Notes under the pieces: generated by a model
The model's input: only the letters and a program-made list of their open reading frames with translations
Databases searched by the model: none
What the model was told of the DNA's origin: nothing
Position numbers and translations under genes: made by a program
Shown: positions 8,680 to 15,208 of the stretch, in pieces
Layout: each line of letters starts with the position of its first letter
How positions within the stretch are numbered: the stretch's first letter is position 1
Source: Verrucomicrobiota bacterium
Lineage (GTDB): Bacteria; Verrucomicrobiota; Verrucomicrobiia; Palsa-1439
Direction: 5' to 3'
DNA: 58,615 nucleotides
Assembly (NCBI GenBank): GCA_016871575.1
Contig: VHCW01000019.1
Span: 1 to 58,615 of the forward strand

Positions 8680-9923
8680 AGCGACTCCCGCGCCGCGCGT
8701 AGCGTCGCCTCGATGTCGGCTTCGGTGTGTGCCAGCGACATGAACCCGACTTCGAACTGCGACGGCGCAAGATAAACGCCGTGCTCCAGCATCCCGTGAA
8801 AAAACTTCGCGTACTTCTTCGTATCGCTCGTCTTTGCGCTGGCGTAGTCCACCACATCCCGGTCTGTGAAGAACGTGCAAAACAACGACCCGATCCGTTT
8901 GTGGGTGCCGGGCACAATCTTCTGCCACTCGCTGCAAAGCGACGCCGTGAGCCGCTCCAGCTTGGCGTAGTCCTTCAACTCCTCCAGCGTCGCGATGCCC
9001 GCCGCCATCGCCAACGGATTTCCAGAAAGCGTGCCGGCCTGATAGACCGGTCCCGTTGGCGCCAGCATGTCCATGATGTCTGCCCGTCCGCCAAACGCGC
9101 CGACAGGCAAGCCGCCGCCGATGATCTTGCCGAGCGTCGTCAGGTCGGCCCGAATACTGAACAACTCCTGCGCTCCGCCCCTGGCAACGCGGAACCCGCT
9201 GATGACTTCGTCAAGAATCAGCAAGGCGCCGTTGTCGGCGGTGAGTTTGCGCAGCTTCGGCAAGAAGCCGTCCTTCAACGGTATCAATCCCATATTGGCC
9301 GGGATCGGTTCGATGATGGCGCAAGCGACCTCGCGCCACGGAACTTGGTCGAGTGCACCCAAATCGTTCAACGGCAATGTCAGCGTATTTCGCGCAACGT
9401 CAGCCGGCACACCGGCGCTGTCAGGCACATCGAAGGTTGCCGCGCCGCTGCCGGCCTTGACGAGGAGTGAATCGGAGTGCCCGTGGTAGCAGCCTTCAAA
9501 CTTCAGGATCTTGTCGCGCTTCGTGAAACCGCGGGCCAACCGAATGGCGGACATGACCGCTTCCGTGCCGGAGTTGACGAATCGGACTTTCTCGATGGAT
9601 GGGAACGCTTCGCTGACAAGCTGGGCGAGTCGGACTTCGCGCGGGTTTGGCGTGCCGAAGCTGGTGCCATCGCGGGCCGCTTCCTGCACGGCGCGGATCA
9701 CTTTCGGGTGCGCGTGCCCGAGAATCATCGGTCCCCACGAACCGACGTAGTCAATGTACTCATTGCCGTCCACGTCCCAGAGCCGCGAGCCTTTCGCGCG
9801 CTGGGTGAAGAATGGAGTCCCGCCGACGCCGCGAAACGCGCGCACCGGCGAGTTGACGCCACCCGCCAGCAATCGGTCAGCTTCCCGCCAGAGTTTGTCG
9901 GAGTACTCGTGTTTTGGATTCAT
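8676..9923 (-). CDS. hemL: Glutamate-1-semialdehyde 2,1-aminomutase
   Basis: 415 residues, class-III PLP aminotransferase fold. It converts glutamate-1-semialdehyde to 5-aminolevulinate, the C5 route to haem. The PLP-binding lysine is in TLGKIIGGGLPVGAFGG. RAFRGVGGTPFF, LWDVDGNEYIDYVGSWGPM and GTEAVMSAIRLAR are family hallmarks. The ATG at 9923 overlaps the dprA stop as ATGA, and the stop overlaps the ubiX GTG. A haem supply gene fits a cell encoding several c-type haem proteins, although the operon partners are DNA and protein quality genes. Confidence 0.97.
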   Translation of the reverse strand: MNPKHEYSDKLWREADRLLAGGVNSPVRAFRGVGGTPFFTQRAKGSRLWDVDGNEYIDYVGSWGPMILGHAHPKVIRAVQEAARDGTSFGTPNPREVRLAQLVSEAFPSIEKVRFVNSGTEAVMSAIRLARGFTKRDKILKFEGCYHGHSDSLLVKAGSGAATFDVPDSAGVPADVARNTLTLPLNDLGALDQVPWREVACAIIEPIPANMGLIPLKDGFLPKLRKLTADNGALLILDEVISGFRVARGGAQELFSIRADLTTLGKIIGGGLPVGAFGGRADIMDMLAPTGPVYQAGTLSGNPLAMAAGIATLEELKDYAKLERLTASLCSEWQKIVPGTHKRIGSLFCTFFTDRDVVDYASAKTSDTKKYAKFFHGMLEHGVYLAPSQFEVGFMSLAHTEADIEATLRAARESL

Positions 9924-10945
9924 CGTTTGGCTCGATATTTCGCTGGCCGTTCCATCACCGTCATCGGCAACAACTCGGGTTGTTCCTCGCGACTGGCGAC
10001 GTGTGTCTGAAACCAATGCGGCAGGTCGGAAAGAGATTCAAGCTCTGTCTCCGGCAGCGCCGCCGCGTGCAACTCCAACAACTTGCGATTGCCGGCCGGC
10101 ACCTCGTGGCCATCACGCGCGAACACCGGGCACCAGCCCGCGCGAAGCGCCTCAACCGCACCGGCCCAGGTTCCGCCTTTTTGCAAATCACTGCTGACCA
10201 CGACGGCATAGTCGGCCAGTCCGTAAATCACCTTGTTGCGCCCCATCGCGGCGCCGACGGAAAAACCGGCCGTTGGCGCGTACGGCGTCAACAATACCAG
10301 CCGCTCATCCAGCAAGAGTTGCCGCAAGTCGGGTTGACGGATCGTTCGTTCCAGACTGTCGGCCAACACGCCGAACGCCGTGCCCCCCGCCTCCAGACAC
10401 GCGGTCATCGCAATGCTGTCGGTGCCGCGTGCGCCGCCGGACACGACCGGCAGAGACGCTTCCGCGCACTTGCATCCGAGGGTTTGTGCGAACGCCGTGC
10501 CGGCCTCGTCAATGTTGCGTGAACCGACGACGGCGATGCCGGCCCGCTTCAACAGCGACAGCGTCCCGGCGCCAAACAACACCGTCGGCGATTGGTGCTT
10601 CAGCGTCGCGCGCAGCTTGGCCGGGTAGTGCGGGTCCACGCGGGTGACGACCCACAGGCCGCGCGAGAAAAGGGTTTCCAGTTCCAGCGCCACGCGACCG
10701 CCGCGCTCCAGCAATCGGACGATCCGGTCCGCGTCGTCGCGCGTCACTCCCAACGTCTCCGCGAGCGCGTGCGCCGACTGGCCGACCAACGCGGCCGGGC
10801 GTTGCAGCGGCGAGTCGTGGATGCGGCGGGCGAGTTGGTTCCACTCCGTCAGCGTGAACGGCGACGCGGTGTCGTCCGTTGCCAGCGTGGAACACAGCAG
10901 CAGCAGCGCGCGTCCGTCCTCGGTGAGAAAATCACGCGCGTCCAT
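9920..10945 (-). CDS. DprA/Smf-family DNA-processing protein
   Basis: 341 residues. The central Rossmann-like DprA domain (about 110-310) shows VVGSRNIDEAG, then VVSGGARGTDSIAM, the ssDNA-binding SGGARGTD motif of DprA (SGxAxGID in the classical form). An N-terminal helical region with a helix-hairpin-helix-like stretch (GVTRDDADRIVRLLERGG) precedes it. DprA loads RecA onto incoming single strands in transformation, and DprA relatives also occur in anti-phage modules. Here it is translationally tied to the RecQ-phosphoribosyltransferase gene (TGATG at 10947-10943). The divergence from standard motifs leaves open that it is a defence- or repair-type paralogue. Confidence 0.85.
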   Translation of the reverse strand: MDARDFLTEDGRALLLLCSTLATDDTASPFTLTEWNQLARRIHDSPLQRPAALVGQSAHALAETLGVTRDDADRIVRLLERGGRVALELETLFSRGLWVVTRVDPHYPAKLRATLKHQSPTVLFGAGTLSLLKRAGIAVVGSRNIDEAGTAFAQTLGCKCAEASLPVVSGGARGTDSIAMTACLEAGGTAFGVLADSLERTIRQPDLRQLLLDERLVLLTPYAPTAGFSVGAAMGRNKVIYGLADYAVVVSSDLQKGGTWAGAVEALRAGWCPVFARDGHEVPAGNRKLLELHAAALPETELESLSDLPHWFQTHVASREEQPELLPMTVMERPAKYRAKR

Positions 10946-13041
10946 CACGAGTTCCTCGGTGACGATTTTGCCAGTGCGAATGGATGAACGGGTCCGCTGC
11001 CATGCGCCTGTAATAATACCGACAACACCGCCATCGTCCACCCCGAATCCGTCAAATCATCCACCAACAACACCGGGCCGCGCGGCAGGTCGCCCACCAC
11101 GGCAAACGCGCCCAGCAGGTTGCGAAGCTGCGTGACGCTGTTTTCCATCTGTTTCTGCGGTTGCGTGTCGCGCAACTGTTGGATGAGCGGTGCGAACGGC
11201 AGGCCGAGCTTGGCCGCCAAGCGAGTGGCGAAATCTCGAACCAACTCCGGGCGTCGCCAGGATGGCACGGCGGCGACCCACGCCGGCGCCGGTTGCGGGT
11301 TCCATTTCTCGCGCACCAGCCGGGCGGCGGCTTCGAGCAGCGCGTCGCTGAATCGTCCGGCTACGTACTTGCCATCGGCAACCTCGCGCCCCCAACCGGC
11401 ATCGCCCCAGATGCACAGCGCCCGGCCCGGTTGCGCGCGCAACGGTTCCGGGATGACCGTGGAACTTACCACTGCGTCTGCGGGCAAGGCGCGTTGCACC
11501 TCAGGCAATATCGTTTTAGGCCAACGCAGCCGCGGCGACAGGAGGATCGAGTCACCACGCAGGAACTCGACGGCGCGCTGCACGAGTTCGGTCGGCGGCG
11601 ATTGACGGTGGGTCTGGCCGGTGCAGTTCATGCACTTCCCGCACGACGCGGGCGACGGATCGTCCAGCGCCCGCGCCAAGAACTCCATCAAGCACCCGGT
11701 GTGTTCGACGTACCGGCGCATCTGCTCGACCTCGGCCCGTCGCAACGCGGTGACTTGCTCGGCGCGCATCACGTCGGGCGTCCACGGATTGGCAGTGCGC
11801 GACCAGACTGTCTTGCGGTGTTCGACCGCCTGGTCCACTTCGAGCAGCCGCAACGCCTTTTCCAGCGTGCCGCGCCGACAGTTCAACGCGGCGCCAATTT
11901 CCTCGATGGTCATGCCGGTCGCCTTTTCCAGCACCGCCAAGACCTGTTGCATGAACTCAGCCGGTGGAAACGCCGTGCGGATGAAGTAGTCGGCGATCTC
12001 GTCGTCCTCGCGTCCGCTCAGCAGGACGCCGTAGGCGGTTTCGACGGCCCGTCCTGCGCGGCCCACTTGCTGATAGTACGCGACAACCGAGCCGGGCCGC
12101 TGGAAGTGTATCACGAAACCGAGGTCAGGTTTGTCGAAACCCATGCCGAGCGCGACGGTGGCGACGAGGGCTTTGACTTCGTTGCGGAGAAGCGCCTGCT
12201 CCAACTGCACGCGCTGCTCGCCTTCGAGATCGGCGTGATACTGGCGGGCGGCGATGCCTTCGCGTTGCAGGAACTCCGCCACGCGGCGGGCGTCCTGGAT
12301 CGTGAGCGTGTAAATGATCCCGTTGCCCGATAGTTTCGGCACGAACTGCGCCAGCCACGCCAAACGCTCGGCTTGGTCGGCAAGTCTGATGTTGTAGAGC
12401 CGCAGCGACGGGCGAATCAGCGGCCCGCGCGAGAGTTCCAAGCTGACTACTTGGGACATCACATCCTGTACGACGCGATTGTTGGCCGTCGCGGTTGTGC
12501 AAATCACCGGCACGTTGGCAGGCAAGTGCCGCAACACCCGGACGATGCGACGGTAATCAGGACGGAAGTCGTGTCCCCAATCGGAAATGCAATGCGCCTC
12601 GTCCACGACGAACAATCCGATCCGCGCCGCCAACAACGGCAGCAGTTTCTCCAGAAACCCGGCATTACTGAGTCGTTCAGGCGACACCATCAGCACGTCG
12701 CACCGGTTGGCTCGCAACGCGTCCTCAACTTGCGGCCATTCGGCGAGGTTCTCGCTGTGGATCGTCAACGCACGGATGCCGGCGCGTTCCGCCGCCGCGA
12801 TCTGGTTGCGCATCAGCGACAGCAACGGACTGATCAGCAGTGTCGGCCCCGCACCGGCGTCGCGCAGAATCTTCGTGGCAAGAAAATAGACGAGGCTCTT
12901 GCCCCAGCCGGTGCGTTGAACAACCAGCAGGCGTTGCCGGTGGTTGGCCGCCCGGTCAATTGCCTCCCATTGCCCGTCGCGGAACCGGGCATCGGCACCG
13001 AGCATCTGCTGCAACAAACGCTCGGCTTCCAAACGATCCAT
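10945..13041 (-). CDS. RecQ-type helicase fused to a C-terminal phosphoribosyltransferase domain
   Basis: 698 residues. The superfamily-2 helicase core has an unusual Walker A TGWGKS, where RecQ normally has TGGGKS. It also has the DEAH box VVDEAHCISDWGHDFRPDYR, SAT-type CTTATANN and helicase C motifs such as QQVGRAGRA. A zinc-binding segment CGKCMNC follows at about 480. The C-terminus holds VLLVDDLTDSGWT (about 657-669), the PRPP-binding loop of type I phosphoribosyltransferases, as in ComF/ComFC. The ATG at 13041 follows GGGAGG. It lies 11 bp after ppnP and overlaps dprA by one base. Unwinding of branched DNA is expected; the role of the PRTase part is unknown. Confidence 0.9.
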   Translation of the reverse strand: MDRLEAERLLQQMLGADARFRDGQWEAIDRAANHRQRLLVVQRTGWGKSLVYFLATKILRDAGAGPTLLISPLLSLMRNQIAAAERAGIRALTIHSENLAEWPQVEDALRANRCDVLMVSPERLSNAGFLEKLLPLLAARIGLFVVDEAHCISDWGHDFRPDYRRIVRVLRHLPANVPVICTTATANNRVVQDVMSQVVSLELSRGPLIRPSLRLYNIRLADQAERLAWLAQFVPKLSGNGIIYTLTIQDARRVAEFLQREGIAARQYHADLEGEQRVQLEQALLRNEVKALVATVALGMGFDKPDLGFVIHFQRPGSVVAYYQQVGRAGRAVETAYGVLLSGREDDEIADYFIRTAFPPAEFMQQVLAVLEKATGMTIEEIGAALNCRRGTLEKALRLLEVDQAVEHRKTVWSRTANPWTPDVMRAEQVTALRRAEVEQMRRYVEHTGCLMEFLARALDDPSPASCGKCMNCTGQTHRQSPPTELVQRAVEFLRGDSILLSPRLRWPKTILPEVQRALPADAVVSSTVIPEPLRAQPGRALCIWGDAGWGREVADGKYVAGRFSDALLEAAARLVREKWNPQPAPAWVAAVPSWRRPELVRDFATRLAAKLGLPFAPLIQQLRDTQPQKQMENSVTQLRNLLGAFAVVGDLPRGPVLLVDDLTDSGWTMAVLSVLLQAHGSGPVHPFALAKSSPRNS

Positions 13042-13052
13042 CCTAGCCTCCC

Positions 13053-13382
13053 TCAACCGAGAAACGAACAGACGTATTCGCAGATACCGGATTTCACCTC
13101 AATGTCGAAACCGGAGTTGGCGGGCACGTCGAAGAGCTGGTTCGCGGCGTAATCCTTCCACGCGGTCTGGCCGTCGAGTTTGACGCGGCAGGCGCCGGCA
13201 ACGATCTCCATGCGCTCGGCGGCCTTGGTGCCGAAGTGAAAGGAGCCGGGGTAGATGAGGCCGACCGTCTTCTTCGTGCCGTCGGGAAAGAGGACGGAGT
13301 GGCTAACGACTTTGCCGTCGAAGTAAACGTTGGCTTTGGTGAGGACGGTGACGTTGGTGAATTGTTGCGGGGTGGTTGCCAT
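13053..13382 (-). CDS. ppnP: Pyrimidine/purine nucleoside phosphorylase PpnP (YaiE/DUF1255 family)
   Basis: 109 residues, a single cupin barrel slightly longer than the roughly 94-residue E. coli protein. Matching stretches are NVYFDGKVVSHSVLFPDGTKK, VGLIYPGSFHFGTKAAERM and the C-terminal VKSGICEYVCSFL, with the FDVPANSGFDI turn. The family cleaves diverse nucleosides with phosphate to a base and pentose-1-phosphate. It is the first gene of the minus-strand run, and its promoter should lie in 13383-13480. Sitting directly before a helicase fused to a phosphoribosyltransferase, it hints at nucleotide or base metabolism linked to DNA processing, but that is inference. Confidence 0.93.
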   Translation of the reverse strand: MATTPQQFTNVTVLTKANVYFDGKVVSHSVLFPDGTKKTVGLIYPGSFHFGTKAAERMEIVAGACRVKLDGQTAWKDYAANQLFDVPANSGFDIEVKSGICEYVCSFLG

Positions 13383-13559: not shown

Positions 13560-13731
13560 ATCATTCGAATTTGGTTTGACGAAGTACTAGATTCGCGTTG
13601 ACAACGTGCCGCTGCACGCTCATTCTGTCCGACATTGTTCGAGTTGTAATTTGGAGATACGCTGGGTGAGAGAAATTACACAACAATCGAAAATAGATTG
13701 TCCGTCGCAGGCGGGTTGGCACGCCTCCTGC

Positions 13732-13759
13732 GCAGGCAGGCAGGCAGGCAGGCAGGCAG
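13732..13759. repeat. (GCAG)7 tetranucleotide microsatellite
   Basis: Seven perfect tandem GCAG units. It is preceded by an imperfect palindrome (GCAGGCGGG... CGCCTCCTGC, about 13708-13732). Such tracts change length by slippage, so the copy number should vary between strains or reads. No gene is in phase with it, so any effect would be on transcription or spacing. Confidence 0.85.
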
Positions 13760-13819: not shown

Positions 13820-14065
13820 CACGAAGTTTTGGCCTCCGCTTTTCCGGTCTCGCCGTCGAGAACGGATTTTTTGTTCCCGTTTTTCCGTTTCCGGCGTCGA
13901 GAACCTGAAACATCCTCTTTCGTTTCCGTTTCCGCCGTCGAGCGCGTCAAAAATGCTTCCGTTTTCCCGTGCTCGCCGTCGAGTACGGAGTTGGGCTTCC
14001 CTTTTTACTGTTTCCGGCGTCGAGAAGGGAGATTTGGCTCCCGTTTTTACGTTCCCGGCGTCGAG
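13820..14065. repeat. Six-unit degenerate array with exact 41-bp period
   Basis: Each 41-bp unit ends in CCGGCGTCGAG or a close variant (CGCCGTCGAG). These cores end at 13860, 13901, 13942, 13983, 14024 and 14065, exactly 41 bp apart every time. The preceding part of each unit is T/C-rich (often TTTTTCCGTTT or CCGTTTTT) and the first 15-20 bases vary. Because 41 is not a multiple of three, no single frame repeats, so it is unlikely to be protein-coding. There is no constant repeat plus unique spacer as in CRISPR. It starts 204 bp before the FN3-protein start codon. The function is unknown. Confidence 0.85.
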
Positions 14066-14269
14066 GAGACAGAAGATGCTCAATAATCGCCAGTTTTCGG
14101 CCTTGTACCGCCCAGAAAGGACTTTTAGCCAATGCCGGGCACTGAATATCCGACTTGGGACGACAAACGCCTCCGCTGGGGGATGCCGGGGCTGCGTTAC
14201 GACCGGCCATTACCCTCGTACATCACCGATCCCCCCAACCTCACTGTCAAACTGAAAGGAAGACACTGT

Positions 14270-15208
14270 ATGCAGACACCAAGTGATCCCGATGCCAAAG
14301 AAACGTTGGGCTTCAACGCTGCCGATGGCGCCGCCCAGTACCAAGCCAGCCTCCCGCTCAAAGCCAACCTGCACGACGACATCTTCGCCGATGCCCAAGC
14401 CTTCAGCGATGCCCGTCGCGGGTACGACGCCGCCGACGCCAAACGCCGGGTCGCCACTGGCGCTCTGCGCATTGGCCGCGACAATGCCCGGAGTTGGCTG
14501 ACCAGCGCCAAGAACCTGCTTCTCCCGACGCTCGGCAAAAAACCGTCCGCCGCATGGGCCGAAGCCGGTTGGAATGAAGACAGCCTCGCCATTCCCAACG
14601 GCGAAGACAAACTCATGCCGATGCTGCGCGCCCAGCAAGCCTACCTGACCGCGCACCCGGCATTGGCCGTCGCCGACCCGCGCTATAATTACACGGCGGT
14701 CCGCGCCGGTGAGTTGCTGGCCGCGCTGGAGTTCGCCCTGACCAACGCCGACCCGGCGCTCGGCCCTATCGGCGTCGAACCGGCCGAAGTCGCCGCCGAC
14801 ACCGCGTTGAACTATCGAAGACTTGCTGACGCTGCGCTCGACCGGCGCTTGCATGGTTTATATGCCGAACTCGAACAACTCCTCGAGCCGCTCGACCCGC
14901 GTTGGACGGCGTTCGGCTTCGACGCGCCCGGCGCGACCAAGCGCCCCGACGCCGTTGCGGCGGCAACCTTCGAGCCGCTCAGCGCCGGCAAAGGCAAACT
15001 CTCATGGACTGGCGCCACCCGCGCCACGCGCTATCAAATCCACCGGCAAGCCGCCGGCACCAGTGGATATAAATTGTTCGCCCGCACCAGTGGCGAGACC
15101 GAGAAGCTGCTGGAAGAATTGGCCGTGGGCGACAAGCTGAAAGTCCGCGGCGTCAACGACACCAACGAAGGCCCCTTCAGCCCCGAAGTCGAGGTCACCG
15201 GCGTATGA
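14270..15208 (+). CDS. Orphan helical protein with a C-terminal fibronectin type III domain
   Basis: 312 residues, not recognised as a named family. Residues 1-215 are predicted mostly helical and rich in Ala, Asp and Leu (e.g. DALDRRLHGLYAELEQLL). Residues about 220-312 look like one FN3 domain, with LSWTGATRATRYQIHRQ, a KLFARTSG strand and KVRGVNDTNEGPFSPEVEV. There is no signal peptide, so it should be cytoplasmic unless exported another way. The ATG at 14270 follows AAAGGAAG. The frame stays open back to 14132, where another ATG lies, but without a ribosome site. It lies immediately after the 41-bp array and before a GC-rich hairpin. Confidence 0.7.
   Translation: MQTPSDPDAKETLGFNAADGAAQYQASLPLKANLHDDIFADAQAFSDARRGYDAADAKRRVATGALRIGRDNARSWLTSAKNLLLPTLGKKPSAAWAEAGWNEDSLAIPNGEDKLMPMLRAQQAYLTAHPALAVADPRYNYTAVRAGELLAALEFALTNADPALGPIGVEPAEVAADTALNYRRLADAALDRRLHGLYAELEQLLEPLDPRWTAFGFDAPGATKRPDAVAAATFEPLSAGKGKLSWTGATRATRYQIHRQAAGTSGYKLFARTSGETEKLLEELAVGDKLKVRGVNDTNEGPFSPEVEVTGV

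Follow-up and report, generated by a model that had tools for sequence, protein, structure and literature searches.

A degenerate 41-bp array of dyadic units upstream of an FN3-family gene in Verrucomicrobiota keeps its spacing while its sequence drifts

Plasmid iterons, which are repeated sites set in phase, offer one comparison for the array presented here. In the ParR/parC and TubR/tubC systems, sites are likewise repeated in phase, on one face of the DNA and directly upstream of an operon, and their sequences differ between systems (PMC5016525). The F-plasmid centromere sopC is built from twelve 43-bp repeats that contain inverted repeats of 16 bp (PMC6238139). In type III toxin-antitoxin systems (ToxIN, AbiQ) the repeat length is kept at 34-36 nt while the sequence diverges (PMC5086642), and TIGR-Tas loci contain locus-specific repeats, 5-15 units beside one protein gene, with two pseudo-symmetric elements in each unit (PMC12045711). 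REP/BIME palindromes have been reported in Verrucomicrobia (PMC3733652). The nearest known arrangement to ours is the sopC centromere, together with the parC and tubC arrays that lie upstream of operons. Full-text literature searches, with subscription literature outside their scope, found no description of arrays such as those reported below.

The DNA analyzed, referred to as the window, is the whole 58,615-bp contig VHCW01000019.1 of a Verrucomicrobiota bacterium (assembly GCA_016871575.1); features given without a sign have no strand assigned. At positions 13820..14065 it contains six units with exact 41-bp steps (z 9.0), which start at 13820, 13861, 13902, 13943, 13984 and 14025. A CGTCGAG core ends at 13860, 13901, 13942, 13983, 14024 and 14065, that is, after five exact steps of 41 bp. 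The autocorrelation of this region peaks at 41, with multiples at 82 and 123, and the lag-41 z of 9.0 may be compared with the best value of 4.85 obtained in 1,000 dinucleotide-preserving shuffles, the maximum being taken over all lags 20-119. Pairwise identity between units is 21-34 of 41 bases, and because the units are this degenerate Tandem Repeats Finder detected only the last 2.2 copies. These data confirm the preliminary description of a six-unit array of degenerate units with an exact 41-bp period. Its placement of the array between divergent genes was also correct, with the Ppnp gene at 13053-13382 (-) on one side and the FN3-family gene at 14132-15208 (+) on the other. A blastn search gave a single match to the array sequence and no second copy in its own genome, in which no other period 41-43 array was found over the 859 kb scanned (the window plus 800 kb). 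A search for the core with 25-40-bp spacing returned three unrelated chance matches apart from the window array. The preliminary description had named a finding that would count against its reading, namely decaying copies scattered with neither regular spacing nor a link to a gene. This is not what the genome shows, although one relative carries same-period arrays at other places, as described below.

The 66 bp between the array and the first start codon (14066..14131, +) are free of array units. A terminator-like hairpin at 14027-14042 overlaps the last unit, and chance can account for it (2 found, 1.1 expected). Upstream of the array, a block at 13587..13671 also occurs (74% across 85 bp) at the ortholog from the same genus, and its counterpart in that genome, G001, takes in the end of the neighboring gene. 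A sigma-70 promoter in this region was considered and rejected; a TTGACA is common to G001, but there it falls within the terminal part of a coding gene; a promoter scan gave no site. A (GCAG)7 simple repeat is present at 13732..13759, and similar runs precede the arrays of L009 and L016. Short simple repeats are in fact often found immediately upstream of arrays, as 14-bp units containing CGTCGT or as (GCAG)n (L008, L010, L013, L022 and window 13732-13759), and it may be observed that 3 x 14 = 42.

The FN3-family gene (14132..15208, +) encodes 358 aa from the ATG at 14132, which AAAGGA precedes at 14116-14121. Further downstream, a second ATG in the same frame (14270) fits the conserved KGRxxM start of homologs. 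In many members an in-frame N-terminal extension precedes the second start, and YDSGxxYDSG and WDSGxWDSG are examples of its motifs. The predicted layout is a helical bundle (residues ~53-260) followed by an FN3 domain (268-358). An AlphaFold2 model computed with 61 homologs has a pLDDT of 91, its bundle including one 54-residue helix, and the FN3 domain is supported by structure comparison (Z about 13). The helical domain modeled alone reaches a pLDDT of 95.5 and its best structural matches are helical with Z at most 9.2; these are no more than common arrangements, none being convincing among the structures compared. No recognized DNA-binding fold is present in this domain, and most family members are acidic (median pI 5.7). 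The protein matches no Pfam, NCBIfam or PADLOC family. Comparison with PHROGs gave a weak tail-protein match, confined to the FN3 end, and no relatives were found in phage, plasmid and viral contig collections. Family members were present in 24 of 384 genomes in an evenly drawn sample of the class. Copy number is 1-9 per genome, and genome G013 has nine. Named records include those from Prosthecobacter, Spartobacteria and Chthoniobacteraceae MAGs and from MAGs labelled Lentisphaerae, Schlesneria and Armatimonadetes, and the gene neighborhoods differ between loci.

Two features of these neighborhoods were recorded. In the window, the array has a PsyrTA toxin-antitoxin defense system as its neighbor, the adjacent genes 9920-11041 (-) and 10945-13056 (-) matching PADLOC PsyrA (E 1e-104) and PsyrT (E 3e-284). 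In 22 of 73 loci, belonging to some clades and not including the window, a collagen-like (GXY repeat), phage-tail-fiber-like gene is found ~1,000 bp downstream of the start of the FN3-family gene (for example L184:18918-19613; PHROG 5073, E 3e-18). Conserved motifs mark both ends of its product, FDPxxPxxGS at the N terminus and SDPPTQxEVQ at the C terminus, and the product matches viral contigs mainly through low-complexity repeats.

The preliminary description had raised the question of whether the array tracks with the FN3-family gene. For each of 66 non-duplicate homologous loci with enough upstream sequence, periods of 20-69 bp were scored and an array was called strong when z was above 5. 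In these loci, which share descent and are mostly from metagenome assemblies, the strongest upstream period was 41-43 in 56, and a strong array was present in 51 (period 42 in 30, 41 in 19 and 43 in two), so that tracking with the gene holds across the set. No array was found in 37 control regions 1.2-2 kb upstream or in 72 regions downstream of family genes, and gene bodies yielded one in 75. In G013 all nine family genes have an array and none was found away from them in the stretches scanned. One of the nine, that of L019, is parted from its own gene by an inserted transposase gene (L176:15873-16841), the insertion having related ends near the gene and the array; reading the protein by eye, we take this transposase to be IS1595-like. 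Genome G052, which has no family gene, contained no array in 322 kb. About a fifth of family members have no clear array. The upstream array of L010 is masked by a 14-bp repeat, and L063 has a period of 84 bp. The near-identical paralogs L011 and L015 of G072 differ in that L015 is without an array, and the array can therefore be gained or lost.

Inspection of the units revealed an additional regularity, which is new here. Each unit was treated as a cycle and scored against its own reverse complement, with column permutations serving as controls. The window array has a cyclic dyad score of 0.49, against 0.33 for the next-best center, and 2,000 column permutations yielded no score as high. A first series of dyads, one per unit, spans 13834..14039 and centers on a base, at 13834, 13875, 13916, 13957, 13998 and 14039 (13834 + 41k). 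A second series, at 13854..14060, centers between bases (13854.5 + 41k), and the CGTCGAG core sits at these second dyads. The same property is widespread, since dyads beat column permutations (z above 2) in 47 of 56 arrays, with a mean z of 4.3. Inverted symmetry is stronger than mirror symmetry in 47 of the 56 (Wilcoxon p 2e-8). Where dyads are clear, positions 1-7 bp away from the stronger one pair at 0.6-0.7; pairing then drops to about 0.35 at 10-13 bp and climbs again, to as much as 0.6, near the second dyad. Most units thus consist of two palindromes half a unit apart (20.5-21.5 bp, two helical turns). The variability of positions is symmetric about the dyad (0.19 vs -0.04), with a minimum 2-4 bp from it, as expected of dimer half-sites. 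Among the clearly dyadic 42-bp arrays, 18 of 20 center on a base, with pairing that extends to the adjacent bases. A one-base center with paired adjacent bases is impossible as a hairpin loop, and a protein dimer on DNA fits better. The earlier proposal that helical phase is under selection is supported, but the natural step is about two turns and not four, as most units contain two dyads.

With these properties in hand, the locus may be compared with the known systems. Like sopC (parS-F), which is a protein-binding array, it is a tandem series of units that each span some four helical turns (43 bp there, 41-43 bp here) and contain an inverted repeat. It differs in that the arrays are chromosomal, lie beside an FN3-family gene, have a locus-specific sequence and usually contain two dyads per unit. 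A domain search of the adjacent ORFs found no ParA/ParB-type genes and no partition gene recurs in the neighborhoods; in the absence of such a linked gene, the array is not a member of the sopC-like centromeres. ParR/parC, TubR/tubC and iterons differ in turn, because no ParM/ParR, TubZ/TubR or Rep protein is present here and the array is not an origin as far as tested. REP/BIME elements resemble the arrays as intergenic palindromes that are sometimes tandem, but REP is one sequence dispersed in many copies, whereas each array is unique in its own genome; with its single genome match, the window array was rejected as an element of this class. A CRISPR array was rejected as well, because the units are contiguous and degenerate, not near-identical repeats with unique spacers.

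The sequence of the units changes rapidly. Unit profiles were compared between loci by best cyclic similarity, for which the permuted chance level is 0.34. Similarity was 0.55 where protein identity is above 85%, about 0.43 at 60-85%, 0.38 at 50-60% and 0.35 at 40-50%, and it equaled the chance level (0.34) below 40%, so that it is near chance from about 50% down. The array sequence diverges faster than the protein, and the units of an array evolve in concert. When the period was placed on the protein tree, repeated switches between 41 and 42 were seen. The period is mildly inherited, with 17 changes against a shuffled mean of 21.5, and a count as low as 17 was obtained in 2 of 200 shuffles. 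The combination of strict spacing with free sequence, first remarked on in the window alone, is thus seen across the 66 loci. That spacing and dyad symmetry persist across distantly related bacteria while the letters change completely suggests that cells read the rhythm of the DNA and not its exact sequence.

One genome complicates the association with the gene. In 800 kb of G028 there are six period 41-42 arrays away from any family member (L295, L309, two in L336, L341 and L353). The array in L295 precedes a small lipoprotein-like gene and has a dyad z of 6.2, and L336:18349, with a dyad z of 8.8, has GTTTCCTGCGGAAACTGAAAGATTTTGTCCAG just ahead, resembling sequence at family arrays. Dyads are weak or absent in L309 (1.2), where the array precedes a methyltransferase-like gene, and in L341 (2.0), L336:8011 (-0.3) and L353 (-0.4), so that at least three of the six are without dyads. 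These arrays rule out an exclusive link to the FN3 gene, which had been our impression from G013, the window's own genome and G052. The array belongs to the FN3-family gene, although not exclusively; the period is wider than the family, and it is the dyads together with the gene association that define the class described here. Genes of more than one family may make use of the period. As a separate observation, L336:7388-7735 (-) and L353:14274-15074 (-) encode one family of small proteins, divergent beside two dyad-less period-42 arrays, with relatives in 13 of 286 genomes; examined by eye, they are presumably winged-helix-like.

These results bear on the idea that the array is a minisatellite, generated by replication or recombination with a ruler of about four helical turns and without function for the gene. 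The concerted evolution and free drift of the units are consistent with this idea, as are the same-period arrays near unrelated genes in G028, several without dyads, and the array-less paralog L015. However, it leaves unexplained why an array precedes nearly every family member over many genera and is absent elsewhere in three genomes sampled, and it does not account for the symmetric conservation about the dyads. We consider a minisatellite origin unlikely, though worth bearing in mind.

The array might instead be transcribed, its RNA units, with one hairpin per 41-43 nt, working together with the FN3-family protein much as an RNA antitoxin or guide array does. The position directly upstream of one gene, the 5-15 units and a length kept as the sequence diverges recall ToxI (PMC5086642) and TIGR repeats (PMC12045711). 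Folding is also more favorable for the arrays than for their column-permuted controls (mean z about -2.5), and on that ground we long favored this explanation. The gain in folding is, however, equal on both strands. Among dyad-paired positions there are 185 G-T and 154 A-C mismatches, and 182 G-T are expected from composition, so that there is no wobble bias on the sense strand. Compensation between the arms within a unit, for which a covariance analysis had been proposed, is about zero (short-range excess 0.006, with an interval that includes 0), with a marginal long-range excess of 0.018 (0.002-0.034). The arrays have no Rfam match, and the one-base dyad centers again disfavor hairpins. No spacer blocks were detected, the autocorrelation of variability being 0.15 at lag 1, 0.05 at lag 2 and -0.03 at lag 3. 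The processed repeat RNA suggested in the preliminary description is accordingly not supported. Type III toxin-antitoxin loci, which resemble ours in having an array directly upstream of one gene, differ in other respects, since here there is no endoribonuclease fold, the units are degenerate and no sign of RNA-level selection is seen; Pfam and PADLOC searches gave no match to the ToxN/AbiQ endoribonuclease family, and the model is a helical bundle plus FN3. For the Rho-independent terminator that such loci have between array and gene, the candidate here is the hairpin at 14027-14042, which lies in the last unit and is of a kind expected 1.1 times by chance. The TIGR-Tas unit is 36, compared with 41-43 here, and its 9-nt hypervariable spacers between conserved repeats are absent. 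Without an alternation of such spacers with conserved edge and loop repeats, a TIGR-Tas array was rejected; a Nop domain was not found in the FN3-family protein by Pfam and is absent from the fold matches listed. A coding protein repeat was also discarded. The argument from frame rotation was right for 41 bp, and the 42-bp relatives, which keep frame, show no codon-position excess (1.13 vs 1.17 permuted). The lack of G.U bias, of codon signal and of spacer blocks, with almost no compensation, favors DNA over RNA or protein, and leaves an RNA function improbable, to about the same degree as the minisatellite. Far less probable is a role as centromere- or attachment-like site for a mobile unit to which the FN3-family gene would belong, since, despite a patchy multi-copy distribution (1-9 per genome), varied neighborhoods and the resemblance to sopC (PMC6238139), no partition, recombinase or replication gene travels along and phages, plasmids and viral contigs give no match.

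The reading that we place first, at roughly even chances, is that the array is a DNA element made of operator-like dyads on one face of the DNA, bound cooperatively near the control region of the gene. With two degenerate palindromic sites in each 41-bp unit, the window array would then offer about twelve, and as these are spaced by about 20.5 bp (two helical turns), all would face the same side of the helix. The array, its period, the dyads, the association with the gene and the free drift of sequence are computed results; from them we infer that the dyads are most likely bound cooperatively by a protein acting as a dimer or oligomer, so that a nucleoprotein complex forms beside the region controlling the FN3-family gene and probably sets its expression. 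The binder may be the FN3-family protein itself or perhaps a host factor that reads DNA shape. Several points weigh against this reading, namely the mostly acidic family without a recognized DNA-binding fold, the off-gene arrays of G028, the array-less members, and the common descent and largely metagenomic origin of the loci. Further, the faster drift of the array than of the protein sits badly with sequence-specific binding by the FN3-family protein.

More tentatively, array and gene may form a two-part locus of a new kind, in which a DNA array that works through rhythm and symmetry and not through sequence, with dyads every two helical turns and a private sequence in each copy, is paired with an uncharacterized helical-FN3 protein, this protein or a partner assembling on the array. 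Such loci would be kept by many Verrucomicrobiota, and MAGs carrying the labels Planctomycetes, Lentisphaerae and Armatimonadetes also contain members. DNA elements are normally recognized by their conserved letters, and sequence searches therefore miss elements defined by spacing and symmetry only. With such an element linked to one gene family over many genera, it can readily be tested whether selection in bacteria acts on DNA phase when the sequence is almost free. For a protein family that is often multi-copy and unannotated, with no Pfam or NCBIfam model, the array is the first distinguishing mark at the genome level, and a new type of nucleoprotein regulator or of genetic module may come to light through it.
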